A stretch of 64,000 bases of DNA. Source: Geobacillus kaustophilus. GTDB taxonomy: Bacteria; Bacillota; Bacilli; Bacillales; Anoxybacillaceae. This document shows positions 49,540 to 64,000 of the stretch, piece after piece. Each line of letters begins with the position of its first letter. The first letter of the stretch is position 1. A program made the translations under genes and the position numbers. The notes beneath the pieces were generated by a model. That model was not told the origin of the DNA. It saw nothing but the letters and a program-made list of their open reading frames with translations, and did not search any database. Location: positions 1,488,001-1,552,000 of the forward strand of contig NZ_JYBP01000003.1 in NCBI RefSeq assembly GCF_000948285.1, written 5' to 3'.

Positions 49540-50067
49540 ATGACGACATTTCAACTCGACAAAGCGCACAGCTCTGTCGCCTTCCAAGTCAGACATATGA
49601 TGATTTCCAAAGCGAAAGGAGAATTCACCAACTTTGACGTCGAGGTGCAAGGCGATATCAACGAACTCGAGTCGCTGAAAGTGAAAGCGACGATCGACGC
49701 CGCCTCGATCGATACGAAAAACGCAGACCGCGACAACCATCTCCGCACGGCTGACTTTTTCGACGTCGAAAACCATCCAACGATCACCTTTGTCAGCGAA
49801 TCGGTGCGCAAACTTTCCGACACGGAATATGAAGTGACCGGGAAACTGACGATCCGCGGCGTGACGAGAACGGAAACGTTCAAAGTCGAATACAACGGCC
49901 AAGTGAAAAACCCGCTCACCGGCGGCATCTCGGTCGGTTTTGACGTCGAAGGAACCATCAACCGTGAAGACTACGGGTTGGTATGGAACGTCGCGCTCGA
50001 AACCGGCGGATTCCTCGTCGGGAAAGAAGTCAAAATCCTTGCAAGCTTTGAATTCGCCCTCAGCTGA
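49540..50067 (+). CDS. YceI-family lipocalin-like protein
   Basis: A 175-residue beta-barrel protein. Family features: FQLDKAHSSVAFQVRHMMIS at the start, IDAASIDTKNADRDNHLRTADFF, HPTITFVSES, VTGKLTIRGVTRTETF and GFDVEGTINREDYGLVWN. YceI proteins bind isoprenoid or other amphipathic molecules. No signal peptide is present, so it is cytosolic as in other bacilli. GAGGGGGAG precedes the ATG. It stands alone with its own promoter and terminator. Confidence 0.92.
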   Translation: MTTFQLDKAHSSVAFQVRHMMISKAKGEFTNFDVEVQGDINELESLKVKATIDAASIDTKNADRDNHLRTADFFDVENHPTITFVSESVRKLSDTEYEVTGKLTIRGVTRTETFKVEYNGQVKNPLTGGISVGFDVEGTINREDYGLVWNVALETGGFLVGKEVKILASFEFALS

Positions 50068-50084
50068 ATGATCAAGTGAAACGA

Positions 50085-50116
50085 AGGTGTCCCAAAAAGC
50101 AATGGGACACCTTTAT
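50085..50116. terminator. Terminator after yceI
   Basis: AGGTGTCCCA/TGGGACACCT stem (50085-50094, 50103-50112) followed by TTATT. It is nearly the same stem as at 25057-25083. Confidence 0.75.
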
Positions 50117-50290
50117 TGCGCTGTATACCCGCCGTCAATCACGACCGCCTGCCCAGTGACGCCTTTGGCCTGTTCCCCTGCCAAAAAAGAACATAATGGG
50201 CGATTTCTTCGGTCGACGCTGCCAACGTTTTCGCCACCTCATAGCCGATCCCCCGCGCCGCTCCGGTGATGAGTGCCACTCGATTCGTCA

Positions 50291-50291
<1 letters not shown>
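50113..50291 (-). pseudogene. Short-chain dehydrogenase remnant, internally deleted
   Basis: ATG 50291 begins MTNRVALITGAARGIGYEVA, the SDR cofactor motif. After about 35 codons the sequence jumps to the usual carboxy end (VTGQAVVIDGGYTAQ) in a different frame. About 190 residues, including the Ser-Tyr-Lys active site, are missing. Its start overlaps the stop of the pterin dehydratase gene, so it was once co-expressed with it. Confidence 0.85.
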
Positions 50292-50605
<314 letters not shown>

Positions 50606-50612
50606 TCACTCT

Positions 50613-51355
50613 CTATATTTGAAATATAGCGGCTAGCGGAATCGCCAAATCCGCAAACAAAAATGAGGAGAGCGTATCGCGTTCGCCAAACACGCTCCGC
50701 TTCATACCCTTTTTCGCCGCGGCCGTACACTTCCACTGTCCGGTGCAGCGGGTCCACGATCCAATATTCCTTGACGCCGAACTGTTCGTACAGCTTATAT
50801 TTTTCGTTCCGGTCTTTCAACGCTGTACTTGGCGAAAGCACTTCCACGACGAAATCCGGCGGACCATCGCACCCTCGGCTGCCAATTTTGCTTTGAACTG
50901 TAGATGAGCAAATTCGCTAACATAAATTTACAATCAAATGGAAAGGAGATATGAAACGGACTCCCATCATTGGAGTTTTCATCCCAATCGCCTGTCGCGT
51001 AATGGGTACCCTGCTTGTCTCTTAAATTATGGAAATAATTGTAATAAAAAATACTCATCTACAGTTTGAACGCAAATGACAGAGATGTCTGGCTGCACCA
51101 CATGCTCCGCCTGTTCATAGTCCGCCGCTCATCAAGGCGTACATCAAACGGCGCCATGACAACTGCACATCCTTTTTCGCGAAAACATGATCGCAAAGCA
51201 ACATACAATTCGCCGACGATAGACTGGTGGACAAACGAAGAGGCCGGTGCTATGCTATAGGGCACTCTGTTGATCAGCTCCCACCGTCCGTCCCATTTGG
51301 CATAATCTTGATACGTATACCGTTCCTTTTGTCGCTCAGTCGATTTCAAGCCCAT
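50613..51355 (-). pseudogene. Uma2-family (DUF820) nuclease-like gene, broken by a MITE and frameshifts
   Basis: Pieces in three frames join to a typical Uma2 protein: YTYQDYAKWDGRWELINRVP, then (other frame) EQAEHVVQPDISVICVQSKI across the MITE, then [20 protein letters not shown] and [15 protein letters not shown], and, after another shift, [14 protein letters not shown] at the end. Deleting the MITE and one TTTGAA restores [11 protein letters not shown]. At least two frameshifts (near 51130 and 50680) and the insertion make it a pseudogene. Uma2 proteins have a restriction-endonuclease-like fold and are often multicopy, with unclear function. Confidence 0.88.
50898..51064. repeat. 167-bp MITE derived from the IS4-type element
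   Basis: It begins CTGTAGATGAGCAAATTCGC and ends with the complementary CATCTACAG, flanked by TTTGAA on both sides (50892-50897, 51065-51070). Its first ~60 bp match the IS4-type left end (including AAAGGAGA) and its last ~65 bp match the right end (AATGGGTACCCTGCTTGTCTC), so it is an internally deleted derivative with no coding capacity. Confidence 0.88.
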
Positions 51356-51504
51356 TCCCCCATCCACGAAGCTGTGCCTCTATTATACCATCGAACATCC
51401 ACAGCCGTCATACAACTCAGGTGCTGACTCCACCAAAACATCCATGAGTAAATTTTACTTCCAACCCAGGCTGAACATCACCGTCCATGAATTCGTTTTC
51501 AAAG

Positions 51505-51534
51505 AAAAAAGCCATCCGACCGAGATGGCTTTTT
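51505..51534 (-). terminator. Bidirectional terminator after the lipase gene
   Basis: AAAAAAGCCATC and GATGGCTTTTT form a stem with T-runs on both strands, 26 bp beyond the lipase stop. Confidence 0.88.
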
Positions 51535-51559
51535 GCCCGTTTGGCTGATCATCCCTTCA

Positions 51560-52816
51560 TTAAGGCTGCAAACTCGCCAACTGCTCGGCAAGGCGTAAAT
51601 AAAAGGCATGAATATCAAACAACGGATTCGGGTCAACGCCGATCACTTCCAAATGATCAACATTGTACGTTCCCATATCATTCCAAACTCCTTTTTTCAA
51701 CGTCCCGTCATACGGCACGATCCGATCGGTCGATCCACGCTTCGGCCCGTTCATCGAAAACGTGTTGACGATGCCATCGTTCTCAAGCCAGCGGTCGTCA
51801 ATGCCAAGCGCCGCATTGCGGTACGAGCCGAGAAACGGGGCGCATACGGCGGCGCTGAATACATTCATCCCCAGTTCGGGATAATAGTTGCCTGTGAGTG
51901 CTCCGCGATACGTCCGTTCTGTGGCAAAGCTCAAATAATACGTGTTCGGACTTGCTTGCACCCATTGGTTCAGCGCCTCCGCACCGGGAACGGATAAATC
52001 ATAGCGGGCGGTATCTGCGGACGTCCAAACGGGGGACTGTTTGAGCCGCTTAAAATATTGGTCAAACGATTCACCCGGCTGACGGCGCAACCCCCATTGG
52101 TCGAGCTTAAAATCGTATACTTGACTTGTGTACGGCACATTGCTGGCGACAGCCGCGGCTTTCAACACCGCTTTTTGCAAGTCAAAAAAGCGATCGGTGA
52201 AATCGACCATATTGACAAGCGTCGTCCCGTCATGAGGAGTGGCAATGGTTGTCACACTCAACACAAAATTATGTCCGCCTTCAAACAACGGCGACAACGA
52301 CACGTTATGCGCCTTGGCGTACTCCCGCTCTTCTTTGCTTCCGTTCTCTAGGAGAGACACAAGCATGCGGGCCGTCTGTCCTCCTTGGCTATGAGCGATG
52401 ATATGGACGCGGCCGCCTCTTTTTAATTCCGGCAGCAAGCCCGGATACGTGCGGCCAAACCGCGCATGGCCGTGCTTCGCCGCATGGGCCGCACCATAAT
52501 CGACCGTTCCGCCGACAAGCTGGGCGTACGCTTCGCATGCCCGGTCCCAGTTGCTTGAGAGCGGGCCGACCGCCAACGTGTACGTTCGATACCCCTGGGC
52601 GTTAAGCAGTTGTTCGATATCGCCGCGCACCCCGCCCCAGTACTTGAACCCAAACATTTCTTCTCGTCCCCAGCCGGTAAAGCCATGGAGAAGCACAATC
52701 GGCGCATCATTGGCTCGCGAAGCCGCCGCTTCAGCTTGCCCTCCCGGAACAGATAGGCAGAACACAAGCCATAATCCGAGCAACACAAGAGCAACACGCC
52801 GACAGCATTTCATCAT
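51560..52816 (-). CDS. lip: Secreted thermostable triacylglycerol lipase, family I.5
   Basis: A 418-residue precursor. The signal peptide ends near residue 29-31 (QAEA-AASRANDAP), giving a mature protein of about 388 residues, the length of the L1/T1 lipases of Geobacillus. It has the oxyanion segment PIVLLHGFTGWGREEMFG, nucleophile Ser in AHSQGG (about residue 142; Ser113 of the mature enzyme), Asp in WLENDGIVN and His in NVDHLEVIG. The inserted zinc-binding and lid regions are present (GAAHAAKHGHARFGRTYPGL). It hydrolyses long-chain triacylglycerols outside the cell. AGGAGAGGGAG precedes the ATG. The close match to known Geobacillus lipases is the best taxonomic clue in the window. Confidence 0.96.
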   Translation of the reverse strand: MMKCCRRVALVLLGLWLVFCLSVPGGQAEAAASRANDAPIVLLHGFTGWGREEMFGFKYWGGVRGDIEQLLNAQGYRTYTLAVGPLSSNWDRACEAYAQLVGGTVDYGAAHAAKHGHARFGRTYPGLLPELKRGGRVHIIAHSQGGQTARMLVSLLENGSKEEREYAKAHNVSLSPLFEGGHNFVLSVTTIATPHDGTTLVNMVDFTDRFFDLQKAVLKAAAVASNVPYTSQVYDFKLDQWGLRRQPGESFDQYFKRLKQSPVWTSADTARYDLSVPGAEALNQWVQASPNTYYLSFATERTYRGALTGNYYPELGMNVFSAAVCAPFLGSYRNAALGIDDRWLENDGIVNTFSMNGPKRGSTDRIVPYDGTLKKGVWNDMGTYNVDHLEVIGVDPNPLFDIHAFYLRLAEQLASLQP

Positions 52817-53087
52817 GTTCTCCCTCTCCTTTCCTTCAATAGGCCAAAATCTTTTTATTCTGAATTACCATAATATTTTATACATAAGACCAAGGCCCTT
52901 CAACCCCTGCAATTGTCGGGGTTTCCTGCTGGAGAAAGGAAACGCGGCTATATCGGATCGCGACTTGAACCACCAAAGAGCAGCAGTTGATCAGCCACAT
53001 CCAAGCGATGACGGCGGAAAAAGCGGATCGATTAGCGCCGCGGCACATAAACGCACAAAACGCGGGCCACGATAACGACAGAAAAAG

Positions 53088-53552
53088 GTGAACGATCCGG
53101 CGCGCTACACCGAACCATTCACCTCCTACCAATCATACTTGAAGCGGTATATTAACGGCGCCCGCGCGAAAGGGGCAACCCCTGTCCTCATCACTCCGGT
53201 CGAGCGGCGGCGCTTTTCCGCCGACGGGCGGGCGCTCAACTCGCATGGACTTTATCCTGCGGCCATGAAGGCGCTTGGGGAGAGAGAGCACGTTCCCGTC
53301 ATCGATTTGACTTCAAAAAGCAAACAGCGGTTTGAACAGCTTGGTCCGGAACGGACGAAACGGTTGTTCTTATGGCTTGCGCCCGGCGAGCATCCGAATT
53401 ACCCGCATGGAATCAAAGACAACACGCACTTCCACGAACGCGGGGCAAAAGAAATCGCCCGGCTAGTCGTCGAGGGGATTATGGAGCTCAACCTCCCCCT
53501 CCGCCGCCACCTGATCCGTTCACTGGGACAAGAACCTGTGCGAAGCCGCTAA
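53088..53552 (+). pseudogene. Rhamnogalacturonan acetylesterase-like SGNH hydrolase, 3' remnant
   Basis: This frame gives the carboxy half of an SGNH esterase: TSYQSYLKRYINGARAKGAT, PVLITPVERRRFSADG, HVPVIDLTSKS and the catalytic Asp-x2-His in IKDNTHFHERGAKEIA. Just upstream (about 53065-53090) GGCCACGATAACGAC looks like the family GHND block in another frame, and the amino half with the nucleophile Ser (GDS) is degraded or absent. It cannot be active. No ribosome site precedes the first ATG. Confidence 0.75.
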
Positions 53553-53638
53553 ACCGAGCGGTTCTTGGCCCTTAGCCGCACTAGCTCATCTACTAAACGT
53601 CATGACGCCGGCAGTGACCCTTTTGCCTTTCACCCAAG

Positions 53639-53673
53639 GCCCGTCCGATCCAAGCTAGGATGGGCGTCTTTTT
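53639..53673 (+). terminator. Terminator-like hairpin
   Basis: GCCCGTCC and GGATGGGC pair around an 11-base loop and are followed by TTTTTT. The remaining DNA between 53553 and 53835 has no other recognised feature. Confidence 0.7.
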
Positions 53674-53835
53674 TGCCTTTCATTCCCGCCGGACGTTGCC
53701 AACGGAACAACTCTATTTGAACGACAAGTTTTCATCGAAAACCGTGCGGAAACGACCAGGCGGCCGGCGCCGCGTTCATGTCGCTATCCTTTTTCCAACA
53801 AGACGAACACGCGCGCTGTTGCACTCCTTGCCGCG

Positions 53836-54183
53836 TTATTTCACTGCTTTTTCTTCCAGCCCTTCAGCCGGCAGCACAATCTCCGCCCGCTTGACATCGT
53901 ACAAACCGTACGGGATTAGGCGAAGACCCGGCAGGAAATCGCACGTTAAAAACAAGAGAGTATACAAAATATCATGGAACGGAAATCCACGTTCTTGCAA
54001 CAGCGCCAACAGCTCATCGTGGAAGCGGACAGCCGTGTCAAACGAATGACCGGTCGTCATCATGCCGGTAAACGGCAGCGGAATTTCCACCACTGTCTTG
54101 CCGTCATCCACGACAACAATCCCGCCGCCCATTTCGTGCACTCGTTTCGCTTCATAGCCGATCGTTCCTTTCGCCTCGTTCAT
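53836..54183 (-). CDS. Adenine deaminase (AdeC/YerA-like) carboxy-terminal domain, separate
   Basis: A 115-residue protein that resembles only the last domain of adenine deaminases: EMGGGIVVVDDGKTVVEIPL, FTGMMTTGHSFDTAVRFHDE, ILYTLLFLTCDFLPGLRLIP and YGLYDVKRAEIV. The metal-binding amidohydrolase domain (about 450 residues) is absent. Its ATG overlaps the stop of the aryl-CoA ligase gene as ATGA, so it is translated with it. It may be a remnant of a deleted gene now captured by the operon, or a stand-alone domain with another role. Catalysis is not expected. Confidence 0.6.
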   Translation of the reverse strand: MNEAKGTIGYEAKRVHEMGGGIVVVDDGKTVVEIPLPFTGMMTTGHSFDTAVRFHDELLALLQERGFPFHDILYTLLFLTCDFLPGLRLIPYGLYDVKRAEIVLPAEGLEEKAVK

Positions 54184-55757
54184 CGTTGTTTCAATAGCTG
54201 ACGCAGTTTAAAGCGCTGAATTTTTCCAGTGGCTGTTTTCGGGAGTTCGTCGATCAATTCGATGATGCGCGGGTATTTATAGTGGGCCAGATGTTGCTTC
54301 GCAAATTGCTTGAGCTCTTCTTCCTTCTCGGCTGAACGAGGAACGCCGTCTTTCAACACGACGAACGCTTTCGGAACCACCAACCCGTTTTCATTTTCCA
54401 CACCCACTACGGCTGCTTCCAGTACATCGTCATGCCGCAGAAGGCAGTTTTCCACCTCGATCGGGGAAACCCAAATGCCCCCGACTTTCAGCATATCATC
54501 GGAGCGCCCGCAATACCAGTAATACCCTTCTTCGTCGCGGTAATATTTATCGCCAATATACAGCCATTCTCCGACGAATTTTTGTTTGTTTTGCTCGTGA
54601 AGGTTCCAATATCCGTGGGCAATCGAGTCGCCGCGAATGATCAAGTCGCCCACCTCATTTGGCGGCAGTTCATTCCCTTGCCCATCAATGATTTTTACTT
54701 CATAGCCCGGAACCGCCTTTCCGGAGCTGCCCGGTTTGACGTCGCCAATGCGGTTGGAAATGAAAATGTGCAACGCTTCCGTCGAGCCGATGCCGTCTAA
54801 AATGTCGACCCCAAACAGCTGCTTCCATTTATAATAAAACGATGGCGGCAACGCTTCACCAGCGGAGACACAGACGCGCAACGAACGAGCGTCAAAGCGC
54901 CGGCCGGCTTTTTCTGCATAATCGATCATGGCGCCGTATAACGTCGGCACGCCGAAAAAGATCGTCGGCTTGTACGTTTCAATCGCCTGAAACATCACCT
55001 CCGGCGAAGGCCGCTCTTTCACAAGCACGGTCGAGGCGCCGACGCCTAACGGAAAATACATTCCGCCGCCGAGGCCATACGCGAAATACAGTTTCGACGC
55101 CGACAGACAGCGGTCATTCTCGTTGATTCCCAGCACTTGTCTGGCGTATGTGTTTAACGCATATTCCATATCGTGCTGCAAATGGATGATTCCTTTCGGA
55201 TCCCCCGTGCTTCCTGAACTGAACAGCCAAAACGCCGCATCATCTTTGTTCGTCGGCGCCGCTTCCAGCTCCTTATCCGTGCGGGCGAGCAACCGATGAA
55301 AGGAAAGCGTTCCCTCGATGGAACTGTTAGCGTTTTCATGAATGACAATGACATCTTGCAAAAAAGCAAACCGCTCGCGAATCGGCTGAAGACGCTCCCA
55401 TAAGTCTTCGTGAATGACCAACACTTTCGCCCGGCTGTTGTTTAAAAAATATTCGTAATCCGACGGTTGCATCATCGTATTGACCGGAATCGGCACCGCT
55501 CCGATTTTGATGGCGCCAAAAAACGTATAGATAAACTCGGGGGTATCGTGGCAGACCATCACCAGCCGGTCTTCCATCCGATAGCCAAGCCCCCGCAGCA
55601 TATTGCCGGTTTGGTTCACTTTTTCTTGCAATTCCTGGTAGGAAATTTGCTCATCGCGATAATAAATGGCCGTTTTCTCTCCCATCCCGCCCTGAACGTT
55701 ATGGTCAATAAATACCTCCGCCGCATTGTACAGCCTGCCGAACCCGCGCAATTCCAT
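54180..55757 (-). CDS. Benzoate/aryl-CoA ligase family protein
   Basis: A 525-residue adenylate-forming enzyme. Motifs: FWLFSSGSTGDPKGIIHLQ (P-loop A3), IFFGVPTLYGAMID, ILDGIGSTEALHIFIS (A5), WLYIGDKYYRDEEGYYWYCG (A7) and catalytic Lys in LPKTATGKIQRFKL. Overall it reads like benzoate-CoA ligases rather than the short PaaK type. It activates an aromatic acid as its CoA thioester with ATP. It lies downstream of the enoyl-CoA hydratase and the paaADBC genes on the same strand, so its product is probably the substrate of the PaaABC oxygenase. Phenylacetate versus benzoate cannot be settled here. Confidence 0.88.
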   Translation of the reverse strand: MELRGFGRLYNAAEVFIDHNVQGGMGEKTAIYYRDEQISYQELQEKVNQTGNMLRGLGYRMEDRLVMVCHDTPEFIYTFFGAIKIGAVPIPVNTMMQPSDYEYFLNNSRAKVLVIHEDLWERLQPIRERFAFLQDVIVIHENANSSIEGTLSFHRLLARTDKELEAAPTNKDDAAFWLFSSGSTGDPKGIIHLQHDMEYALNTYARQVLGINENDRCLSASKLYFAYGLGGGMYFPLGVGASTVLVKERPSPEVMFQAIETYKPTIFFGVPTLYGAMIDYAEKAGRRFDARSLRVCVSAGEALPPSFYYKWKQLFGVDILDGIGSTEALHIFISNRIGDVKPGSSGKAVPGYEVKIIDGQGNELPPNEVGDLIIRGDSIAHGYWNLHEQNKQKFVGEWLYIGDKYYRDEEGYYWYCGRSDDMLKVGGIWVSPIEVENCLLRHDDVLEAAVVGVENENGLVVPKAFVVLKDGVPRSAEKEEELKQFAKQHLAHYKYPRIIELIDELPKTATGKIQRFKLRQLLKQR

Positions 55758-55880
55758 TGTTCACCATCCCATTCCCCATGAAATTGAACTGCCCGGTGAA
55801 TCAGCGTGCAAAACAACTGGGCAGCGAAGCCTTTGAAAGGATGAATCTGTCTCCATTTCAAAGGCTCCGCTAACCACACG

Positions 55881-56678
55881 TTAAATGCCTTTCCAATTCG
55901 GTTGGCGTTTTTCCAAAAAGGCGCTCATCCCTTCTTTCGCGTCTTCGGAGCGGAACAGCAAGTTTTGCAGCTCGCCTTCGTAGCGGATCGCCACATTCAG
56001 CGGCATCTCTTTCCCGTTCATGATCGCCAGCTTGATGTTCGAGACCGCATACGTCGCGCTGCTCGCGAGCTTGCGCGCATATTCCCGCGTCCGCTCTCTC
56101 GTTTCCGCCTGCGGAAACACTCGGTTCACCAGTCCAATGTCCAGCGCCTCTTGCGGCGTGATCGTTTCGCCCGTAATGTTCATATCCAGCGCCCGCGAAT
56201 AGCCGATGAGCCGCGCCAGCCTCTGCGTGCCGCCTGTTCCGGCCAACACGCCAAGCGACACTTCCGGCAGCCCGATTTTCCCTGCTTCATCGCCCATAAA
56301 CCGCAAATCACACGCCAACGCCAGCTCCAACCCGCCGCCGACCGTATGCCCTTCTAAGCAGGCAATGTACACTTGCGGCGAACGCGCGATTTTGTCGAGC
56401 GTCTCATTGCAGAACAGGCAAAATTGCGTTTTAAACCGCGGATCAGCCGAGCGTAAAAAGTTGATATCCGCCCCTGCCGAGAAAAACTTCGGCACATCGC
56501 TCATGACGATGACGACTTTGATGTCCGGGTCAAAGCGGATGTCATCGATGGCTGCATTGAACTCTTTGTAAAATTCCAAATCATACGAGTTCGATTTGTT
56601 AATGTGCAAGTGAATCTCGGCAATCCCATCCTCTTTGACAACCGTTAAATATTGTTTTTTCGTTTCTACAGCAGTCAT
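55881..56678 (-). CDS. Enoyl-CoA hydratase/isomerase family protein
   Basis: A 265-residue crotonase. The oxyanion-hole segments are PKFFSAGADINFLRS and GHTVGGGLELALACDLRFMG (first catalytic Glu region), and the second Glu is in IGLPEVSLGVLAGTGGTQRLARLIG. AAGGGGAATG precedes the ATG. It lies 145 bp after paaC and 123 bp before the ligase. It probably acts on ring-opened CoA thioesters of the aromatic pathway, like PaaF or PaaG. Its 3' third is duplicated at 61727-61993. Confidence 0.88.
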   Translation of the reverse strand: MTAVETKKQYLTVVKEDGIAEIHLHINKSNSYDLEFYKEFNAAIDDIRFDPDIKVVIVMSDVPKFFSAGADINFLRSADPRFKTQFCLFCNETLDKIARSPQVYIACLEGHTVGGGLELALACDLRFMGDEAGKIGLPEVSLGVLAGTGGTQRLARLIGYSRALDMNITGETITPQEALDIGLVNRVFPQAETRERTREYARKLASSATYAVSNIKLAIMNGKEMPLNVAIRYEGELQNLLFRSEDAKEGMSAFLEKRQPNWKGI

Positions 56679-56822
56679 TGTTTCATTCCCCTTCCTTCAA
56701 AAATGATTTGATTGTTTCACGCAGGCAACGACAGATAGACCTTGTTTTGAAAAGTTCATTTCCCTTGCGCTTCAAGAGAGAGAAAGAATACCGTCTGTTC
56801 CTCACCTCCTTGTATGCTGTTG

Positions 56823-57467
56823 TTATTTCAACTGAACGAAAGGTTCAGCCGCAACCGTTTTCAATTCCTGCTGCAGCCGTTCAACGAGCTTGACTCCGTT
56901 CGGCAAGTACCCTTCCTGTTGCAACTCTTCCTTGCTTTCAACCTCTTTTAACCAAGCCGCCGCTTCGTTCGCCGCGGCGTTCAACGCTGCACGGAAACGA
57001 TGAGGAACAGCGCCGCGCTCATGGGCGAGCTGCTGCGCCCAATGTTTGGCGTATACAAGATGATCTTGTTGTTCTCGGATCAACTTCTGGATTCGCGATA
57101 CAATGGCAGGATGGTTGGCATCGAGTGCGGATTGCAAAACAGCGTCAATGGCGGTGTTTGTTGCGTATAGTGCGGCGATGAGCGTGATCCAGTTATGCAC
57201 GTTGACGGCGCTTGCCAGCGCTTTTCCGGTTTGGCGGTAAATTTCCGGCTTTTTTCCTTTCAAGCCGCGCAAATCGAAACACCAGTTGTACAACAAGCGC
57301 GCATGTCCGAGCTCTCCTTGCGCCATCGCGATCGATGCCAGCGTGGCTTCCAAATTCGGACCGCTGACCCCGACCTCAACAAGGCGGTCGCCAAGAACGT
57401 ATTTATTGTCAGCGATCGTTTCGAGCAACTCAATCAGCGAATGCACAGCAGACTGCCTTTGTTCCAT
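56823..57467 (-). CDS. paaC: Phenylacetyl-CoA epoxidase structural subunit PaaC
   Basis: A 214-residue ferritin-like protein from ATG 57467 (after GGAGGAGG). MAQGELGHARLLYNW keeps part of the helix motif of the PaaA/PaaC pair, and VHNWITLIAALYATNTAIDA and REQQDHLVYAKHWAQQL follow. PaaC is the scaffold partner of the catalytic PaaA. It overlaps paaB by 34 nt and ends the paaA-paaD-paaB-paaC set. Confidence 0.9.
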   Translation of the reverse strand: MEQRQSAVHSLIELLETIADNKYVLGDRLVEVGVSGPNLEATLASIAMAQGELGHARLLYNWCFDLRGLKGKKPEIYRQTGKALASAVNVHNWITLIAALYATNTAIDAVLQSALDANHPAIVSRIQKLIREQQDHLVYAKHWAQQLAHERGAVPHRFRAALNAAANEAAAWLKEVESKEELQQEGYLPNGVKLVERLQQELKTVAAEPFVQLK

Positions 57468-57697
57468 TGCGCCTCCTCCCCCTTTAGGCATAGCCACTTC
57501 GGTTTTCTCACCCAAACGAGCTCGCTGCGATCGACAACAACCATTTCCGCCCAATCTTCCTCATCGTACGTGTAAGTGGCATATACTTTTGCCAGCTCCT
57601 CGTTTTCCGCCTCCACTGTGCCGATGTGGACCAATTGGTCGCCTCGTTTCACGCGAGCGAAAATGTCAAACGTTTTTCGTCGTTGGGCCGCTGTCAT
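57434..57697 (-). CDS. paaB: Phenylacetyl-CoA epoxidase subunit PaaB
   Basis: An 87-residue protein from ATG 57697, overlapping the paaD stop as ATGA. It shows the PaaB pattern: FDIFARVKRGDQLVHIGTVE, AENEELAKVYATYTYDEEDW, MVVVDRSELVWV. PaaB bridges the two PaaAC heterodimers. The order A-D-B-C differs from the A-B-C-D of proteobacteria. Confidence 0.9.
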   Translation of the reverse strand: MTAAQRRKTFDIFARVKRGDQLVHIGTVEAENEELAKVYATYTYDEEDWAEMVVVDRSELVWVRKPKWLCLKGEEAQWNKGSLLCIR

Positions 57698-58020
57698 GTG
57701 GAGCTCACCCCCCAATATTTCAATTTCTCGCGCCCTTCCGGACTGATCCTGTCGACCGTCCACGGCGGATCCCAAACGACGTGAATATGAACGTCACGAA
57801 CCCCTTTCTCTTTGAGCAGTCGATCGCGGATGTCTTGCTCGATCCACTCCATGCAAGCGCATGATACCGCTGTATACGTCATGGTCACATGGAGCTCTTC
57901 ATCCACTTTTTCAATGTGGTAAATGAGCCCCATATCGACGACGCTGATCGGAAATTCCGGATCCATCACTTCTTTCAGCGCTTGCCAATACTTTTCCGTT
58001 TCGGTGTTCCGTTTGTCCAT
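57694..58020 (-). CDS. paaD: PaaD-type (MIP18/DUF59) maturation protein, without zinc ribbon
   Basis: A 108-residue protein from ATG 58020 (AAAGGAAG seven bases upstream), overlapping the paaA stop. It has the MIP18-family core VMDPEFPISVVDMGLIYHIE and TYTAVSCACMEWIEQDIRD with Cys residues, then HVVWDPPWTVDRISPEGREK. It stops there, whereas E. coli PaaD has an additional carboxy zinc ribbon; a separate zinc-ribbon gene at 63442-63648 supplies a matching domain. PaaD is thought to help assemble the iron centre of PaaABC. Confidence 0.9.
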   Translation of the reverse strand: MDKRNTETEKYWQALKEVMDPEFPISVVDMGLIYHIEKVDEELHVTMTYTAVSCACMEWIEQDIRDRLLKEKGVRDVHIHVVWDPPWTVDRISPEGREKLKYWGVSST

Positions 58021-58955
58021 CACACCGCTTCCTTTCGCAGTTGTTCGAGTTCCTTCGCCCCGCGTTGAATCCGTTCCACGAACTCTTTATTTTTCGGGCC
58101 CCGCTGTTTAAACCGCTTGATGACGTTGTCCCACGTATCCGGCTGGTCAAACAGCCATTTTTTGTTCACCGGGTCAAACTTGCACGGGAACGGCACATCG
58201 AGCACGTATTTTTGTTGCTCCTCATCGTAATGGGCAGGAACTTTGACACCGATTGATTCGCAGAACGGAACGGCCGTTGACAGCCATTTTTGCCGCAGTT
58301 CGTCATTCGTCCGCCCTTTTAAGCGGTACTCCAGCTGCGCCGAGCGGCTTTTCAACCGGTCCTCGACCCCGAAAAACTCAAGCGCCATTAAAAACATCCA
58401 GTCGACCGCTTTTTGCACTTCTTCGCGCAAATTCGGATCCTGCATCGCTGTTCTCATAATGATCTCGCCGTTGCGAAGATGGAACAGCTCCTCTTTGTCC
58501 ACTTTCACGAGCGCCCGCTTCCACGGCCCGTACGACGTATGCTCAAACGCATCGCCAAGAAGGGTGTAGCCCGCGCGGTCAAAAAAAGCATTGAAGACGC
58601 CGAATTCAATCCAGTTTGACAACTCAAAATCAAAGGCGTACGGGTTTTTCCAACGGTGCGCCTCCCGCTCGTACAGCAGCCTGTCAACATCCTCGCCCAA
58701 ATCTTTCAACAGCCGATAGGCGATGTGGGCATGGCCGATTTCATCCTGCATAATGGCCAGCGCTGTAATTTTGCTGTTTAATGTCGGCGCTTGGTCGTAC
58801 ACCGTAAGCAGCGGCGGGACGCTCAGCAGCTCGGTGTCGCCGACGATCGTCAGCGTCTGTTTCAACGCGTTTAAATACTCTTCATTCATATCGTCAATGC
58901 CTTCGACGATAAATCCATTTTGAACTTTTTCCTTTAGCAGCGTTGCTTGATCCAT
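58020..58955 (-). CDS. paaA: Phenylacetyl-CoA epoxidase catalytic subunit PaaA
   Basis: A 311-residue diiron oxygenase subunit, the usual length. Diiron ligands are in AIMQDEIGHAHIAYRLL (Glu-x2-His, about residues 66-69) and DKEELFHLRNGEIIMRTA (second Glu-x2-His). VGDTELLSVPPLLTVYDQAP is a conserved family segment. It converts aryl-CoA to the 1,2-epoxide with O2 and reductant; no paaE reductase gene is visible in the window. AAGGAAGGTGAG precedes the ATG. The promoter region upstream shares a motif with that of the aldehyde dehydrogenase operon. Confidence 0.92.
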   Translation of the reverse strand: MDQATLLKEKVQNGFIVEGIDDMNEEYLNALKQTLTIVGDTELLSVPPLLTVYDQAPTLNSKITALAIMQDEIGHAHIAYRLLKDLGEDVDRLLYEREAHRWKNPYAFDFELSNWIEFGVFNAFFDRAGYTLLGDAFEHTSYGPWKRALVKVDKEELFHLRNGEIIMRTAMQDPNLREEVQKAVDWMFLMALEFFGVEDRLKSRSAQLEYRLKGRTNDELRQKWLSTAVPFCESIGVKVPAHYDEEQQKYVLDVPFPCKFDPVNKKWLFDQPDTWDNVIKRFKQRGPKNKEFVERIQRGAKELEQLRKEAV

Positions 58956-58969
58956 ATTCTCACCTTCCT

Positions 58970-59012
58970 TATTACGTTTTTTTTAACTATCGTATTCTAT
59001 ACATAATGTTAA
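58970..59012 (-). promoter_or_regulatory. paaA upstream motif shared with 63669-63708, candidate PaaX site
   Basis: On the plus strand ATTACGTTTT, then TTTAAC, ATCGT and CATAATG occur in the same order and nearly the same spacing as at 63671-63708. TTGACA (minus strand) lies just upstream of it. The segment is therefore a shared control site, most simply for PaaX. Confidence 0.55.
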
Positions 59013-59200
59013 TACAACGTAAATAGTGTTGTCAACATAAAAATAAGAAAAATCGGAAAATTATTTTTAGTTGGAAATCCTTTTATTTCTGCTGATCAAC
59101 CGTCCATTCTGTCTCTTTGTTCCATTCGGTCGTTTTTCAGAGTATACAACATTTGTTTTCCGTTCGTGTAATTTTCATGGAGCCACTAGTTGCACAACTA

Positions 59201-59441
59201 TATAGAGGCAACGAAAAAGTTTAACACATCCTTGACGGAAAAGTTGTTTGTCCATTTTTTCGACTGTCGAAGGCAAGCCTGTGGCTTGCCTCCGTCACGC
59301 CAGGGCGTGACGGAAGACCGAACAACCACCCGCTTCAACAGACCCATACATGGGGCTGGAAGCGGCGTTGTTCGGTCGCCCGACAGTCGAGCAAATGCTT
59401 GGTAAATGCTGCAAATGTTAAAGCTTCAAATTGCATCTATA
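59201..59441. repeat. MITE copy 2 (241 bp, TA duplication)
   Basis: It is flanked by TA (59199-59200, 59442-59443) and has the same ends and hairpins as copy 1 at 5168-5405 but in inverted orientation. It differs by scattered substitutions (for example TATAGAGGC at one end). It sits between paaA and the MBL gene terminator, so it does not break a gene. Confidence 0.9.
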
Positions 59442-59445
59442 TAGG

Positions 59446-59475
59446 CAAAAAAAAAAGCCAGCTGGCTAACAGCTG
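59446..59475 (-). terminator. Terminator of the MBL-fold gene
   Basis: On the minus strand CCAGCTG/CCAGCTGG pair around TTAG, followed by ten T residues. It overlaps the stop of the gene at 59466. Confidence 0.8.
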
Positions 59476-60458
59476 GACATCGGGCATTGCCGATAGATGA
59501 CCGCATGGCGATGCTCCTCTTTTTGCAATTCGCCGACAGACACCAAATATTCCAAATGCGCCAGCGTCTCAGCCACTGCAAATCGCCATTGGTGCGCCGT
59601 CAACGGCTTATGGCCGAACACGCGATGGGCGACTTCATAGGCGGTGGACCCCGATCCTGCTAGCGCTTTCATTTTTTGCAACCGTTGTTCGTGATGACGG
59701 AAAATGTCGCCGATCCGCTCGCGAAATTGGCGAATGACCCCGCCATGGGCAGGCAGAGCCACATCCACCCCAAGCCCCTCCACTTTGCGAAGCGAAGCAA
59801 AATATTGCTCGAGCGGATTTGGGTGGGCGCCCGGCCATACACTAATGTTCGGAGTAATGCGGTCAAGCACATGGTCCGATGCAAGCAGCTGGCGAGATTC
59901 CTCCTGATAAAAACTGATCAATCCATCGCTGTGCCCCGGAACCGGGATGACCGCCCATCTCCGCTGCCCCAGCACAATGTCCGAACGATCCAAAACGGTT
60001 AGCACCGGAAACGGGCTGACGCGCAGCGACAGCTTCCACATGCTCTCCTCAATGTCCGTTACCAGCTCATCCGGCACGCCATGGCGGCGAAACATGGCAC
60101 CTACTTCGCTCGCCTGGACGCTCTCTTCCCCCCACACCCGTTCCGCCATCGCATAATCCGGTTCGCTGATCCAGACGGGCGCTTCCGTCTGCTGCTGCAT
60201 CCACCCGGCCAAGCCAAAATGGTCTGGATGGAAGTGAGTGATGTAAATAGCGCGAACGTGCCGCGGCTTGATCCCCAACTGCCGAAACACCGTTTCCCAT
60301 GCACGAATCGCCTCAGGATCGCGAAAGCCAACGTCAACGATGCTCCACCCATCCGTCTCCCGGCATACGTAACAATAGACATACTTCATTGGAAACGGGA
60401 CTGGAATCGGAACGCGGTAAATTCCGTCTCCTACCGTTTCCATTTCAATCTGCGCCAT
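59466..60458 (-). CDS. MBL-fold metallo-hydrolase
   Basis: A 330-residue metallo-beta-lactamase-fold protein. The metal motif is YITHFHPDHFGLAG (His-x-His-x-Asp-His, about residues 73-80), with further ligands in VIPVPGHSDGLISFY and LLASDHVLDRITPN, and ALPAHGGVIRQF near residue 240. The carboxy helical part (HEQRLQKMKALAGSGSTAYE) is like that of lactamase B-type hydrolases with a winged-helix tail. It may hydrolyse a CoA thioester or lactone in the neighbouring aromatic pathway, but the substrate is unknown. GAGGGGAAAGG precedes the ATG. Confidence 0.88.
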   Translation of the reverse strand: MAQIEMETVGDGIYRVPIPVPFPMKYVYCYVCRETDGWSIVDVGFRDPEAIRAWETVFRQLGIKPRHVRAIYITHFHPDHFGLAGWMQQQTEAPVWISEPDYAMAERVWGEESVQASEVGAMFRRHGVPDELVTDIEESMWKLSLRVSPFPVLTVLDRSDIVLGQRRWAVIPVPGHSDGLISFYQEESRQLLASDHVLDRITPNISVWPGAHPNPLEQYFASLRKVEGLGVDVALPAHGGVIRQFRERIGDIFRHHEQRLQKMKALAGSGSTAYEVAHRVFGHKPLTAHQWRFAVAETLAHLEYLVSVGELQKEEHRHAVIYRQCPMSSC

Positions 60459-60553
60459 CCTTTCCCCTCCCCCTGCTTTTTTCCTTCCTCTTATTCACAG
60501 CGCCTCAAGTGGACATGCCAGGCGCCGATATCCCCCAATCCATTTTAGACGCA

Positions 60554-60717
60554 TAAACGGTGACACCCCCCGCCATCTATGCTTTGCTTAGAGGTAGGAG
60601 CTTCTCGGATGATCCTGTCTTATGACTAAAATGGACCGAGCGCCCCCCGTCTGCCCGACGGTTGTCATCCCCCACCTCCCCTTCGTTTAGAAGTGGAGGA
60701 CTTCCTTAGAGATGCCG
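60554..60717. other. Non-coding segment with hairpins resembling an IS200/IS605-type end
   Basis: Two imperfect hairpins, one around 60567-60600 (CCGCCATCTA and TAGAGGTAGG) and one around 60671-60710 (CACCTCC, TTC and GAA, GGAGG), look like the structured right ends of IS605/IS1341 elements. No transposase or TnpB gene remains, so this is a weak suggestion. Confidence 0.3.
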
Positions 60718-61593
60718 TTAAATCATTTCCATAAACGGATTGATCGCCTTATCGCGGTTGAATGTCACCTCACGATCTGGTGCAGCCTCAAACAATGTCT
60801 CAAAATAGCGGATGGCCGGAACGGCGAGCAGCTGATGGACATTAAAAAACAGCTCCCGCGCCCTCGTTCCGCTCCAATCATCCGGTAATAAATCGTTCGG
60901 AAATCCCGGATCAATAAAGAAAAAACCCCGATATTCATGCACGAGTTTCGTCCGCTCAATGAAACATTCGCGGTCAGTCAGCTCATTGTTCCAAGCCCGT
61001 TGTTGGAATTCTTCGTACTTTCGTTCGTACGTTTCAATAAACCGGTCATACTCCTTGGCAATATAAGAGAAATCCCAGCCGCGCTCAATGATTTGCTCGT
61101 TGCTGTGCGACACGATGGAGCTCGCCGTAAACAAAATGACGTACGGCTCCAAATGATAGTCTTTCACCCATTCCATCACTTGCGGTTCGATCGGATTCGG
61201 ACTCGCCCACGTCCCGTGGGAGATGAGGCCAAACCCCATCAAGCTTAATTCTTTGCGGATTTGGCTGCGCAGCTCCCGTTTTTCTTCGGGAACGGAGTAC
61301 GTCAACACCCGCCATTGGCCGTCCCACTTGTAGTTCCGCTGCGAATAGACGCGGTTGAACCCGTCCATCATCGTCCGTTTCCCTTTCGGCGTCAACGAAT
61401 AATAGCTGTTGTTGCCGATTTTCCGGACTTCAAAAAATCCCTGTTGCACCATCCTTAGCGCCGCTCCGCGGATGGACGACTCGGAAATGCCGAAGTGGGA
61501 CATCATTTGGATCAAGCTTCCGATCCATACTTCGTTCCCATAATGTTGAATATATTCCCCAAATAACGTAAACATGAGCGCTCTCGGCTTCAC
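60718..61593 (-). CDS. paaX: PaaX-type regulator of aromatic-CoA degradation
   Basis: A 291-residue protein from GTG 61593 (AAGGTG nine bases upstream). The winged helix is at about residues 5-80 (LMFTLFGEYIQHYGNEVWIG, FGISESSIRGAALRMVQQGF). A PaaX central domain (WDGQWRVLTYSVPEEKRELR, MGFGLISHGTWASPNPIEP) and carboxy domain (LVHEYRGFFFIDPGFPNDLLP) follow. PaaX represses phenylacetate genes until phenylacetyl-CoA binds. It sits between the paa genes and the aldehyde dehydrogenase, both of which share a candidate operator. Confidence 0.92.
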   Translation of the reverse strand: MKPRALMFTLFGEYIQHYGNEVWIGSLIQMMSHFGISESSIRGAALRMVQQGFFEVRKIGNNSYYSLTPKGKRTMMDGFNRVYSQRNYKWDGQWRVLTYSVPEEKRELRSQIRKELSLMGFGLISHGTWASPNPIEPQVMEWVKDYHLEPYVILFTASSIVSHSNEQIIERGWDFSYIAKEYDRFIETYERKYEEFQQRAWNNELTDRECFIERTKLVHEYRGFFFIDPGFPNDLLPDDWSGTRARELFFNVHQLLAVPAIRYFETLFEAAPDREVTFNRDKAINPFMEMI

Positions 61594-61726
61594 TGCTGTT
61601 CACACCTTGTCTTTTTTTTTTTGAATTTTTCTTTTATTATGGTACGAAATCACCTTCCCTTTCAAGCGCTAAATTTATGTTTTCATAAAAACATATCGGC
61701 CGAAACGGCCGATATGCACTCTGATC

Positions 61727-61993
61727 CAATTCGGTTGGCGTTTTTCCAAAAAGGCGCTCATCTCTTCTTTCGCGTCTTCGGATCAGAACAGCAAGTTTTG
61801 CGGCTCGCCTTCGCAGCGGATCGCCACATTCAGCGGCATCTCTTTCCCGTTCATGATCGCCAGCTTGATGTTCGAGACCGCATACGTCGCGCTGCTCGCG
61901 AGCTTGCGCGCATATTCCCGCGTCCGCTCTCTCGTTTCCGCCTGCGGAAACACTCGGTTCACCAGTCCAATGTCCAGCGCCTCTTGCGGCGTG
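61727..61993 (-). pseudogene. Duplicated 3' fragment of the enoyl-CoA hydratase gene
   Basis: About 267 bp nearly identical to 55892-56162, in the same orientation (ITPQEALDIGLVNRVFPQAE, then YARKLASSATYAVSNIKLAI). A few substitutions are present, one of which (a TGA after QNLLF) truncates it. It is fused directly to the stop codon of the aldehyde dehydrogenase gene. It is not functional by itself. Confidence 0.9.
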
Positions 61994-61994
61994 A

Positions 61995-63476
61995 TCAAAT
62001 GCCAAATAGGTTCAACGGTTTAGTGCCGATATAAGAGACGACGCTTTTTGTCTCAGTGTATAAGTTCAACGTCTCAAGCGCCAGCTCGCGGCCAAACCCC
62101 GACTGCTTGTACCCCCCAAACGGCGTGCCTGGAAATGCGGAAATCGGCGAGTTGACCATGACAATCCCAGCGCGGATGCGCGCGGCGACGCGATGGGCTC
62201 TTCCGTGGTCTTTCGTCCAAACGGCTGATCCTAACCCGAAAATCGTATCGTTCGCCAGCTTAATGGCCTCTTCCTCGTCACGGAACTTCATGACAACGAC
62301 GACTGGACCGAAAATTTCTTCCTGCGCCACCCGCATGTCGTTTCTTACATTGCCGATAATCGTTGGCATGTACCAATAGCCTTTCGCAAACTCCTCACCT
62401 TCCGGGATTTTCCCGCCGTATAAAATTTCGCCGCCTTCCTCAACCGCCAGCTTCACATAGCTGTCGATCACTTGCTGATGGCTTCGCGAAATGACCGCGC
62501 CCATATGCACCCCTCTTTCAAACGGGTTGCCGACGCGGATGCGGGACGCTTTTTCAATCAATTTCTCCATAAACTCATCGTAAATGGTTTCATGCACAAA
62601 CAGCCGCGAACGCGCTTCGCACGACTGCCCCGTGTTGTAAAAAATGCCGTAAAGCGAGCCGTTGACCGCCGCTTCGATATCGCAATCATCAAACACGATG
62701 TTTGGCGATTTCCCGCCGAGTTCGAGCGTCACTCGCTTCAACGTCTCCGAGGCGCGCCGCATAATGTCTTTGCCGGTTTCCGTCTCTCCGGTGAAGGCCA
62801 CTTTGTCAATACCCGGATGCTCGGTCATATACGGACCGATTTCAGAACCGCTTCCAGAAATGACATTGACGACGCCATCCGGAATCCCGGCCTCTTGGCA
62901 AATTTCCGCCAGCATATAAGCGGTGATCGGCGTATAGCTTGCCGGCTTTAACACGACCGTGCACCCGGCTGCCAATGCCGGCGCGAGCTTCCAAGCCGCC
63001 ATCATCAACGGATAGTTCCACAGGATGATTTGTCCGCATACACCGACCGGCTCTTTGACCGTGTAGTTGAAAAAGCCGTTTGGCACTTGGTTGACGTCGC
63101 CTTGCAACGTAATTGCTGCAGCTGCATAAAATTCAAAATCCTCAATTGCTTGCATAATTTGCCCTTTGGCCGCATCGACCGTTTTACCGCTGTTTAACAC
63201 TTCCGCATACACCAAGTCATCGAATCGTTCTCTCATCAAGTTGGCAATTTGATTCAGCAGGCGCGCCCGCTTCGCTCCCGTCATTTTTGACCATTTTCCC
63301 GATTCAAACGCCGCGCGCGCCGCCTTGACGGCACGATCTACGTCTTCTTTCGTGGCTTTGGCGACGGTCGCAATCACTTCCTCTGTCGCCGGATTGATCG
63401 TTTCAAACACTTCTCCGTTGCTGCTCTCGACATACTGGCCGTTAATAAACAGCGGATAATGCTGCTTGATCTTCAT
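61995..63476 (-). CDS. NAD(P)-dependent aldehyde dehydrogenase, possibly for an aromatic aldehyde
   Basis: A 493-residue enzyme from ATG 63476 (AAGGGGAG upstream; overlaps the zinc-ribbon gene by 35 nt). It has GQIILWNYPLMMAAWKLAPA, VAFTGETETGKDIM, general base in LELGGKSPNIV and catalytic Cys in NTGQSCEARSR (about residue 293). Betaine, phenylacetaldehyde and related aldehyde dehydrogenases are its closest types by pattern. Shared promoter motif and neighbours suggest oxidation of phenylacetaldehyde or of the Paa ring-opened semialdehyde. It ends right at the duplicated hydratase fragment, so downstream genes of its operon were probably lost. Confidence 0.85.
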   Translation of the reverse strand: MKIKQHYPLFINGQYVESSNGEVFETINPATEEVIATVAKATKEDVDRAVKAARAAFESGKWSKMTGAKRARLLNQIANLMRERFDDLVYAEVLNSGKTVDAAKGQIMQAIEDFEFYAAAAITLQGDVNQVPNGFFNYTVKEPVGVCGQIILWNYPLMMAAWKLAPALAAGCTVVLKPASYTPITAYMLAEICQEAGIPDGVVNVISGSGSEIGPYMTEHPGIDKVAFTGETETGKDIMRRASETLKRVTLELGGKSPNIVFDDCDIEAAVNGSLYGIFYNTGQSCEARSRLFVHETIYDEFMEKLIEKASRIRVGNPFERGVHMGAVISRSHQQVIDSYVKLAVEEGGEILYGGKIPEGEEFAKGYWYMPTIIGNVRNDMRVAQEEIFGPVVVVMKFRDEEEAIKLANDTIFGLGSAVWTKDHGRAHRVAARIRAGIVMVNSPISAFPGTPFGGYKQSGFGRELALETLNLYTETKSVVSYIGTKPLNLFGI

Positions 63477-63648
63477 CAGTGGGCTCCCCTTCCTCCTTGG
63501 CATCGTCTCTCCATCTCACCCGCTCAAACACGCTTTTGCATTGATGGCAATAGTATTGCGAAACGAGCTGAGCGGTCCCAAACATCGATAGCGGCGCTAC
63601 GTTCACTGAGCCGCAAAACACGCAGCGCACCTCCCTGCCTATCGGCAT
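63442..63648 (-). CDS. Stand-alone PaaD-type zinc-ribbon protein
   Basis: A 68-residue protein with two Cys-x2-Cys knuckles: VRCVFCGSVNVAPLSMFG and QYYCHQCKSVFERVRW. This pattern (CxxCGS, a Ser-x-Phe-Gly turn, YxCxxC, Phe) is the carboxy zinc ribbon of proteobacterial PaaD, which the PaaD at 57694-58020 lacks. GAGGTG precedes the ATG, and the gene overlaps the aldehyde dehydrogenase start. The tail is acidic and probably disordered. It may complete PaaD in trans during PaaABC maturation; that is inference. Confidence 0.75.
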   Translation of the reverse strand: MPIGREVRCVFCGSVNVAPLSMFGTAQLVSQYYCHQCKSVFERVRWRDDAKEEGEPTDEDQAALSAVY

Positions 63649-63668
63649 CGGCTAGACACCTCTCTGTT

Positions 63669-63708
63669 TTATTACGTTTTATTTAACATCGTCTGTTTAA
63701 CATAATGC
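63669..63708 (-). promoter_or_regulatory. Promoter-region motif shared with paaA, candidate PaaX site
   Basis: The plus strand reads ATTACGTTTTATTTAACATC, then GT and later CATAATG, matching 58971-59010. On the minus strand TTGACA lies upstream at about 63727-63732. Confidence 0.55.
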
Positions 63709-63844
63709 TATTAAAATTTAAACACACTGTCAATAATAAAGCTGAAAAAAATGAAGATTTATAATATTCCTTCTATCCTTTGATCGATACGAAGTAGCTC
63801 ATGGCTTTTTAATTATATGGAACAGAAACGACCGTCCTGATCAA

Positions 63845-63883
63845 GAAAACCCGATGGGATGCGTTACATCCCGTCGGGTTTTC
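63845..63883. terminator. Strong bidirectional terminator
   Basis: GAAAACCCGATGGGATG and CATCCCGTCGGGTTTTC form a 17-bp stem with one mismatch and a five-base loop, with A/T runs at both sides. The rest of 63735-64000 contains a smaller palindrome (GAGCAACGTTGCTC near 63914) and no gene. Confidence 0.85.
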
Positions 63884-64000
63884 TCAAAAAAAGCCTTGAA
63901 ACAGTAGAGCAACGTTGCTCCACTGCCTGACTCGTTTCCCCACATTTGTTTTTGCCGTACACTCCCTTACGCCAACTCGCCACGTTTCATTCCGTCGTTT

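Follow-up and report, generated by a model that had tools for sequence, protein, structure and literature searches.

The window analysed here, a stretch of 64,000 nucleotides from Geobacillus kaustophilus, raises the question of why a PaaD-type zinc ribbon should be encoded as a gene of its own, at a distance from a PaaD that lacks one. Canonical PaaD (TIGR02159) is a single protein in which the ribbon is covalently joined, as the C-terminal domain, to an MIP18/DUF59 domain, and its gene adjoins paaA, paaB and paaC. In the window, by contrast, the same two domains are encoded by separate genes, 5.4 kb apart and in different operons. We put at about 0.68 the probability that the ribbon protein and the short PaaD of the window (PaaD2) are the two halves of one PaaD, with the ribbon contributing the zinc-ribbon domain, and that they work in trans in the maturation of a second, divergent di-iron oxygenase, PaaA2-B2-C2. 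The grounds for this reading are the homology to the PaaD ribbon, the lack of a ribbon in PaaD2, the co-occurrence of the two genes in all cases examined, an operator-like site common to both operons and purifying selection.

The ribbon gene (63442-63648, minus strand) encodes a stand-alone PaaD-type zinc-ribbon protein of 68 residues, as judged from its open reading frame, a PF23451 match, invariant cysteines and an AF2 model; read on the plus strand, the same interval contains internal stops. The first-pass annotation had recognised a small protein of PaaD-ribbon pattern from CVFCGS...CHQC, and this was confirmed by PF23451 (Zn_ribbon_PaaD), which scores 39.1 bits against a cut-off of 27 (E 5.6e-10) and is the only Pfam family above its cut-off in the protein, several other ribbon models scoring weakly. 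On the PaaD model TIGR02159, the protein aligns with positions 104-143 of 146. Its two CxxC knuckles (C9, C12, C34 and C37) are invariant in 43 of 43 aligned sequences, the alignment having been built from 48 sequences of which five near-copies were left out. The gene is under purifying selection, with a dN/dS of 0.08-0.43 in 11 of 12 pairs and saturation in the twelfth. The AF2 model (mean pLDDT 76.8, pTM 0.55) has three strands, and residues 11-40 form a block of pLDDT 81-96; a model of a fused PaaD reached a pLDDT of 85.1 and a pTM of 0.78. A search of PDB sequences with the ribbon gave chance matches only (best E 0.74), Foldseek found no match to the ribbon model in the PDB at E ≤0.001, and VIA returned weak, generic ribbon matches with Z up to 4.3, NrdR on top. 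We rejected a chance or spurious reading frame, since the ribbon is conserved, under selection and located within a cluster.

The ribbon gene is followed on the minus strand, which also carries the other genes named in this paragraph, by an aldehyde dehydrogenase gene (61995-63476; 493 residues, 65% identical to the aldehyde dehydrogenase encoded in the genome's canonical paa cluster), which, with its start codon as inferred, shares 35 nt with the end of the ribbon gene. Next come the remnant of a second enoyl-CoA hydratase (61725-61996), recognised by similarity to the intact copy and covering residues 173-262 of 265, a PaaX-like repressor (60718-61593; TIGR02277 242.9 bits, under the cut-off of 264.55), which is 46% identical to its PaaX-like counterpart in the canonical cluster, and an MBL-fold hydrolase (59466-60458), a homologue of which lies near PaaA2 in many relatives. 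The oxygenase genes follow: PaaA2, the divergent di-iron oxygenase alpha subunit (58020-58955); PaaD2 (57694-58020); PaaB2 (57434-57697), with a start inferred at an ATG overlapping the paaD2 stop; and the structural subunit PaaC2 (56823-57491, start codon inferred). Downstream of these lie an enoyl-CoA hydratase/isomerase family protein (55881-56678), for which all matches shown are under their cut-offs, and a benzoate-CoA ligase family protein (54180-55757; TIGR02262 635.3 bits, cut-off 375.25). The hydratase remnant is 95.6% identical in protein, and 98% in DNA over 272 nt, to the intact copy, which is the gene at 55881-56678, and the genome of one relative (G270) carries a full enoyl-CoA hydratase copy at its place.

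PaaD2 matches only positions 1-89 of the 146 of TIGR02159, and FeS_assembly_P/MIP18 is its only domain (PF01883 52 bits, cut-off 23.5), in agreement with the earlier claim that the local PaaD stops after the MIP18-type domain. The TIGR02159 equivalog cut-off of 108.15 bits is reached by neither half (PaaD2 70.8, ribbon 27.2); in terms of model coverage, PaaD2 and the ribbon jointly make up one PaaD. Within the DExxH and EExxH motifs of PaaA2, residues E72, H75, E155, E156 and H159 are unchanged across all 12 sequences aligned; these motifs presumably supply the iron ligands.

The complex encoded beside the ribbon is not the only one of its kind in the genome. PF23451 has two matches there, the window ribbon (38.7 bits in this search) and a frame of 161 residues (82.6 bits), which is a fused PaaD and sits in a canonical-looking cluster whose order, read by eye, is paaK-A-B-C-D-EthD-ECH-ECH-ALDH-HBDH-thiolase-PaaX. 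PaaA2 is 27% identical to the canonical PaaA of the same genome, and the window subunits fall short of the PaaABC equivalog cut-offs, with 134.6 bits against 280 for PaaA2 (TIGR02156), 19.4 against 85.45 for PaaB2 (TIGR02157) and 56.6 against 133.35 for PaaC2 (TIGR02158). By these profile scores, the window complex is a divergent second complex and not the canonical phenylacetyl-CoA epoxidase. The proposal that the ribbon helps to assemble the iron centre of PaaABC thus needs amending as to the partner: the complex concerned is the divergent one, and the genome has a canonical PaaABC with a fused PaaD besides.

One set of 299 genomes from the order was searched both for the PaaD-ribbon family and for the window PaaA, counting among the matches listed, with both lists ending at weak matches; in many genomes, the ribbon search scored just 21 of the first-look candidates. 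Stand-alone ribbon frames (61-76 residues, 36-45 bits, over the cut-off) were present, among these matches, in 12 of the 299 genomes, and a PaaA of 78-100% identity in the same 12, all remaining PaaA matches listed being 26-34% identical (Fisher p 1e-21, a value that ignores kinship among genomes that are not independent). Two more ribbon matches over the cut-off lie in long frames, of 255 residues in G275 and 214 in G026, and both genomes are without a divergent PaaA. Six of the 12 genomes showed no full-length PaaD, the stand-alone ribbon being the best match, and in the same six no PaaA exceeded the canonical cut-off; one of them, G251, has one more, weaker ribbon match outside the matches listed. 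On the basis of these six genomes, we rejected the idea that the ribbon serves only the canonical PaaABC of its own genome. A genome with the predicted complex and the short PaaD but without a ribbon gene, a case that the first-pass annotation had named, for an active complex, as refuting its reading, was looked for and none was seen.

Gene order in relatives places the ribbon close to the oxygenase genes in most cases. Half of the 12 genomes have the order A2-D2-B2-C2-ribbon; in three, the ribbon is the first gene of an operon that also encodes two hydroxyacyl-CoA dehydrogenases, a thiolase and an aldehyde dehydrogenase, and in the remaining three, the window included, it precedes the aldehyde dehydrogenase or PaaX. 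A scan of named genomes, covering the best 80 of 143 relatives, gave 78 loci, 53 of them divergent (L081-L133, PaaA at least 47% identical) and 25 at 26-31%. The ribbon was found in the examined flank of 47 of the 53 divergent loci: in 36 it is the next gene after paaC2, in 10 it lies on the upstream side of paaA2, and in one it is 7.5 kb downstream. In the other six the contig ends before the place of the ribbon, and a ribbon (49-97% identity) occurs elsewhere in all six genomes. PaaD2 follows paaA2 in 52 of the 53 loci, and in none does the ribbon lie within the PaaD2 frame, a same-frame case at L117 being the other, canonical PaaD of that organism. The first-pass annotation was right that the ribbon is a separate gene at a distance from the short PaaD (5.4 kb in the window); its placement at the head of a second operon stands for the window, and such a displacement is a feature of a smaller group of bacilli. 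We rejected displacement to a second operon as a general rule, as the ribbon lies upstream of paaA2 in only 10 of the 47 loci and far downstream in one.

Several individual loci depart from these patterns. Aliibacillus thermotolerans has no paaD2 between paaA2 and paaB2 (L115), and a ribbon-less PaaD2 of 60% identity lies on another contig (L185), by eye beside a paaC2-like gene. In Domibacillus antri (L168, frame 1429-2523 on the reverse strand), the ribbon and a 3-hydroxyacyl-CoA dehydrogenase-like sequence share a single open frame and appear to be fused. Records titled Halalkalibacter alkalisediminis DSM 21670 contain two A-D-B-C-ribbon clusters (L116 and L132), with PaaA at 78% and 81%. 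For two Chitinophagales and two uncultured bacteria (L141, L144, L145 and L149), the stretch examined encodes a PaaA but gave no match to MIP18 or the ribbon.

The same arrangement extends beyond bacilli. We ran tblastn with the window PaaA on plasmid records and covered 40 of 201 records plus a spread of 60. The best PaaA among the matches listed came from Thermus thermophilus (54%, 7 records) and haloarchaea (47-51%, 12 records), followed by Agrobacterium (38%, 4 records) and one soda-lake haloarchaeon (37%); other rows were at 26-35%. All 24 such records listed have a ribbon 1.39-1.52 kb after paaA, and a short PaaD with a separate ribbon after PaaC was found in 7 of 7 loci read in detail, namely five plasmids, an Egibacteraceae bacterium (L131) and a Bacillus (L133). 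The Thermus thermophilus plasmid paaA_2 and haloarchaeal megaplasmid clusters resemble the window in their PaaA (47-54%), short PaaD and separate ribbon, with an A-D-B-C-ribbon order in the plasmids, but differ in their neighbours, which are CoA transferases, the UbiD family and ABC transporters, and in that PLSDB frequently lists no gene for the ribbon. Of the 24 plasmid ribbons, 10 have no gene listed in PLSDB, 7 only overlapping neighbours, 6 a 'hypothetical protein' and 1 a record without annotation; this gene table is incomplete, so that 'no gene listed' does not mean unannotated in the original record. Ribbon genes lacking from the incomplete table include those of Haloterrigena turkmenica (L161, 10283-10455) and Agrobacterium (L162, about 10279-10444). 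Taken with the bacilli, the stand-alone ribbon accompanies the divergent oxygenase in the same 12 of 299 genomes, at all 53 named loci and in each of the 24 plasmid records listed.

A separate ribbon is in fact already known in the NCBI annotation of haloarchaea, under the confusing name 'PaaE'. Haloferax mediterranei and Natrinema pallidum have an A-B-C-D-ribbon order with the ribbon annotated 'paaE' (168 and 165 nt), D and ribbon are also in separate frames in Natribaculum, and the NCBIfam model NF041869 bears the name PaaE for the haloarchaeal ribbon. PaaE of Paracoccus is a gene of 1077 nt; the name on the small ribbon gene therefore does not denote the reductase. The window ribbon has no match at E ≤1 to the reductase model TIGR02160 (352 positions). 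The haloarchaeal pair (NF041868/NF041869) is like that of the window in combining a ribbon-less PaaD with a separate ribbon of about 55 residues. It differs in having D and ribbon side by side, in an A-B-C-D-ribbon order with paaK close by, and its PaaA falls outside the clade of the window PaaA; moreover, the window proteins are far under the haloarchaeal cut-offs, with 94.3 bits against 180 for PaaD2 (NF041868) and 21 against 100 for the ribbon (NF041869).

The two operons of the window are further linked by a motif. ACGATN{8,13}ACRTAAT has exactly two matches in the 64 kb, against 0.07 expected, and none of 100 shuffles had two, which bears out the earlier remark on a shared upstream motif; one match is the operator-like site upstream of the ribbon operon (63671-63692, minus strand) and the other that upstream of paaA2 (58971-58993, minus strand). 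The whole genome has eight matches and the reversed control two. Compared by eye, both upstream regions have a common TTGACA + TAatAT spacing followed by the ACGAT...ACRTAATA element. Among the 53 named loci, the exact motif occurs shortly upstream of paaA2 in 33 and is lacking there in 20; it also precedes ribbon-headed operons, for example at L069, L071, L083 and L085. The PaaX-like repressor is encoded between the two operons and may bind at the operator-like sites.

We analysed the direction of change on a PaaA tree of 50 rows, comprising 22 divergent rows hand-picked from 59 loci (the window, L081-L133 and L159-L163), 17 fused rows, 3 haloarchaeal rows and 3 rows in which no PaaD could be seen, the root being formed by 5 PaaC rows. 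The fused state of the 17 was read directly, or from the frame length where the locus ends inside PaaD. Three long PaaC rows were left out of the root; one of them, L174_C, fell among PaaA in a first tree with eight PaaC rows. On the PaaC-rooted tree, the 22 A-D-B-C-ribbon rows form one clade (98/95), and the three haloarchaeal two-piece rows branch before a clade of the fused rows and the three rows without PaaD in view (97/92). The two-piece and fused states are separated by a single change, or by two if the outgroup is coded as fused, and the simplest reading of the single change is one fusion leading to the textbook PaaD. The tree favours the two-piece form as ancestral and the fused PaaD as derived, by one step and with a long-branch PaaC root. 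Of the 'split' PaaD of the first-pass annotation, the two separate proteins stand, and fission is disfavoured by that one step. The observation is confirmed and the interpretation broadly stands, once the complex is identified anew and the direction of change is taken as probably the reverse. A wider picture seems possible, though we would not bet on it, in which the two-piece PaaD came first and was fused only later into the textbook PaaD. The A-D-B-C-ribbon clusters of Bacillales, Thermus, Actinomycetota, Agrobacterium and haloarchaea would then be a deep-branching second class of di-iron aryl-CoA epoxidases, one that would supply a benzoyl-CoA epoxidase to aerobic bacilli without BoxB.

What the ribbon does can be approached from its one-piece counterpart. 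The sections of PMC9493321 and PMC4498308 dealing with PaaD describe it as a protein of unknown function that is essential in vivo in E. coli and dispensable in vitro, and this requirement in vivo but not for catalysis in vitro fits a maturation role. The ribbon and PaaD2 would interact physically and serve in trans as a dedicated maturation factor of PaaA2-B2-C2, probably by helping in iron delivery or by holding apo-subunits, as is thought for one-piece PaaD; the ribbon would contain a metal, and the substrate of the oxygenase may be an aryl-CoA, perhaps benzoyl-CoA. Gene order argues against maturation, in that the ribbon gene follows paaC2 and not paaD2 in 6 of the 12 genomes and 36 of the 47 named loci, so that the ribbon could instead be a small structural subunit of the PaaA2B2C2 oxygenase. 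The spacing after paaA in 24 of 24 plasmid records listed points the same way. VdcD of vanillate decarboxylase is an example of a small zinc-ribbon enzyme subunit, and ShVdcCD chains are among the weak Foldseek and VIA matches of the ribbon model (7ae7_a, E 0.25 and Z 2.7). Such fold matches are generic, however, canonical PaaD carries its homologous ribbon fused to MIP18, and according to PMC9493321 no PaaD was detected in any of the stable complexes PaaAC, PaaBC and PaaABC; we regard a structural subunit as unlikely.

It is less likely still that the ribbon carries iron and works as a rubredoxin-like electron carrier in place of the missing reductase PaaE. This idea would account for the absence of a PaaE over the cut-off in 7 of 7 genomes with the second cluster, a search in which no control genome scored over the cut-off either, and for the two CxxC knuckles; the PaaE name of NF041869 and the 168-nt haloarchaeal paaE also seem to speak for it, but the length of the Paracoccus gene shows that this name does not stand for a reductase. 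The second knuckle of the ribbon, moreover, is one that we take to be zinc-ribbon-like rather than rubredoxin-like, and the canonical cluster of the window genome is, by eye, also without a reductase gene beside paaABCD, yet has a fused ribbon. As short cysteine-rich families match by chance and other ribbon models score weakly here, the protein could in principle be an unrelated small zinc ribbon hitch-hiking in the cluster; with PF23451 alone over its cut-off and a co-occurrence of 12/12, 53/53 and 24/24, this already disfavoured idea is highly improbable. Against the favoured two-piece PaaD stands the ribbon-dehydrogenase frame of Domibacillus antri, which would not be expected of a PaaD partner. 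With the PaaD domains as separate genes, each can be deleted, tagged and complemented alone.

As to the substrate, a benzoyl-CoA type is our favoured guess, held at slightly under even odds, on account of the benzoate-CoA ligase family protein in the cluster and of the failure to find BoxB in the genome. A homologue of the ligase, at least 54% identical, is present in 42 of the 53 named relative loci. Against the BoxB model (TIGR03225, cut-off 499), PaaA2 scored 20.3 and 21.5 bits and no other match was seen in the genome, in a search with no control over the cut-off. In Bacillus stearothermophilus, aerobic benzoate degradation presumably runs via benzoyl-CoA; catabolism of this kind in that species is named in the title of Zaar et al. 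(2001). BoxB and the PaaA2 complex possibly share a substrate class, given the ligase neighbour, but BoxB is described as monomeric in the pertinent section of PMC4498308, and PaaA2 is far from its model (20.3-21.5 bits against 499). Among open-licence PMC papers, no title or abstract dealt with a two-piece PaaD or with the genes behind a bacillus benzoyl-CoA route; PMC7159879, which combines 'paaD' with 'zinc ribbon', is concerned with conflict systems. The locus exposes a class of oxygenase clusters that annotation files under phenylacetate and whose ribbon gene many gene tables omit. In bacilli where BoxB was not found, this class is a candidate for the aerobic epoxidation of benzoyl-CoA.

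The remainder of the window yielded minor observations. Rfam at gathering thresholds gave no match in window positions 50000-64000. Open reading frames at 4170-5096, 6057-7247, 7611-8468 and 35362-36834 are, by resemblance, presumably transposase-like. Beside the ligase gene, an ORF of 115 residues (53836-54183, minus strand) resembles adenine deaminase models at their C-terminal end only. In G. jurassicus (L130), a frame of 598 residues has the same final residues and is preceded by a frame of 161 residues that was not seen in the window, which suggests a deletion beside the ligase gene.
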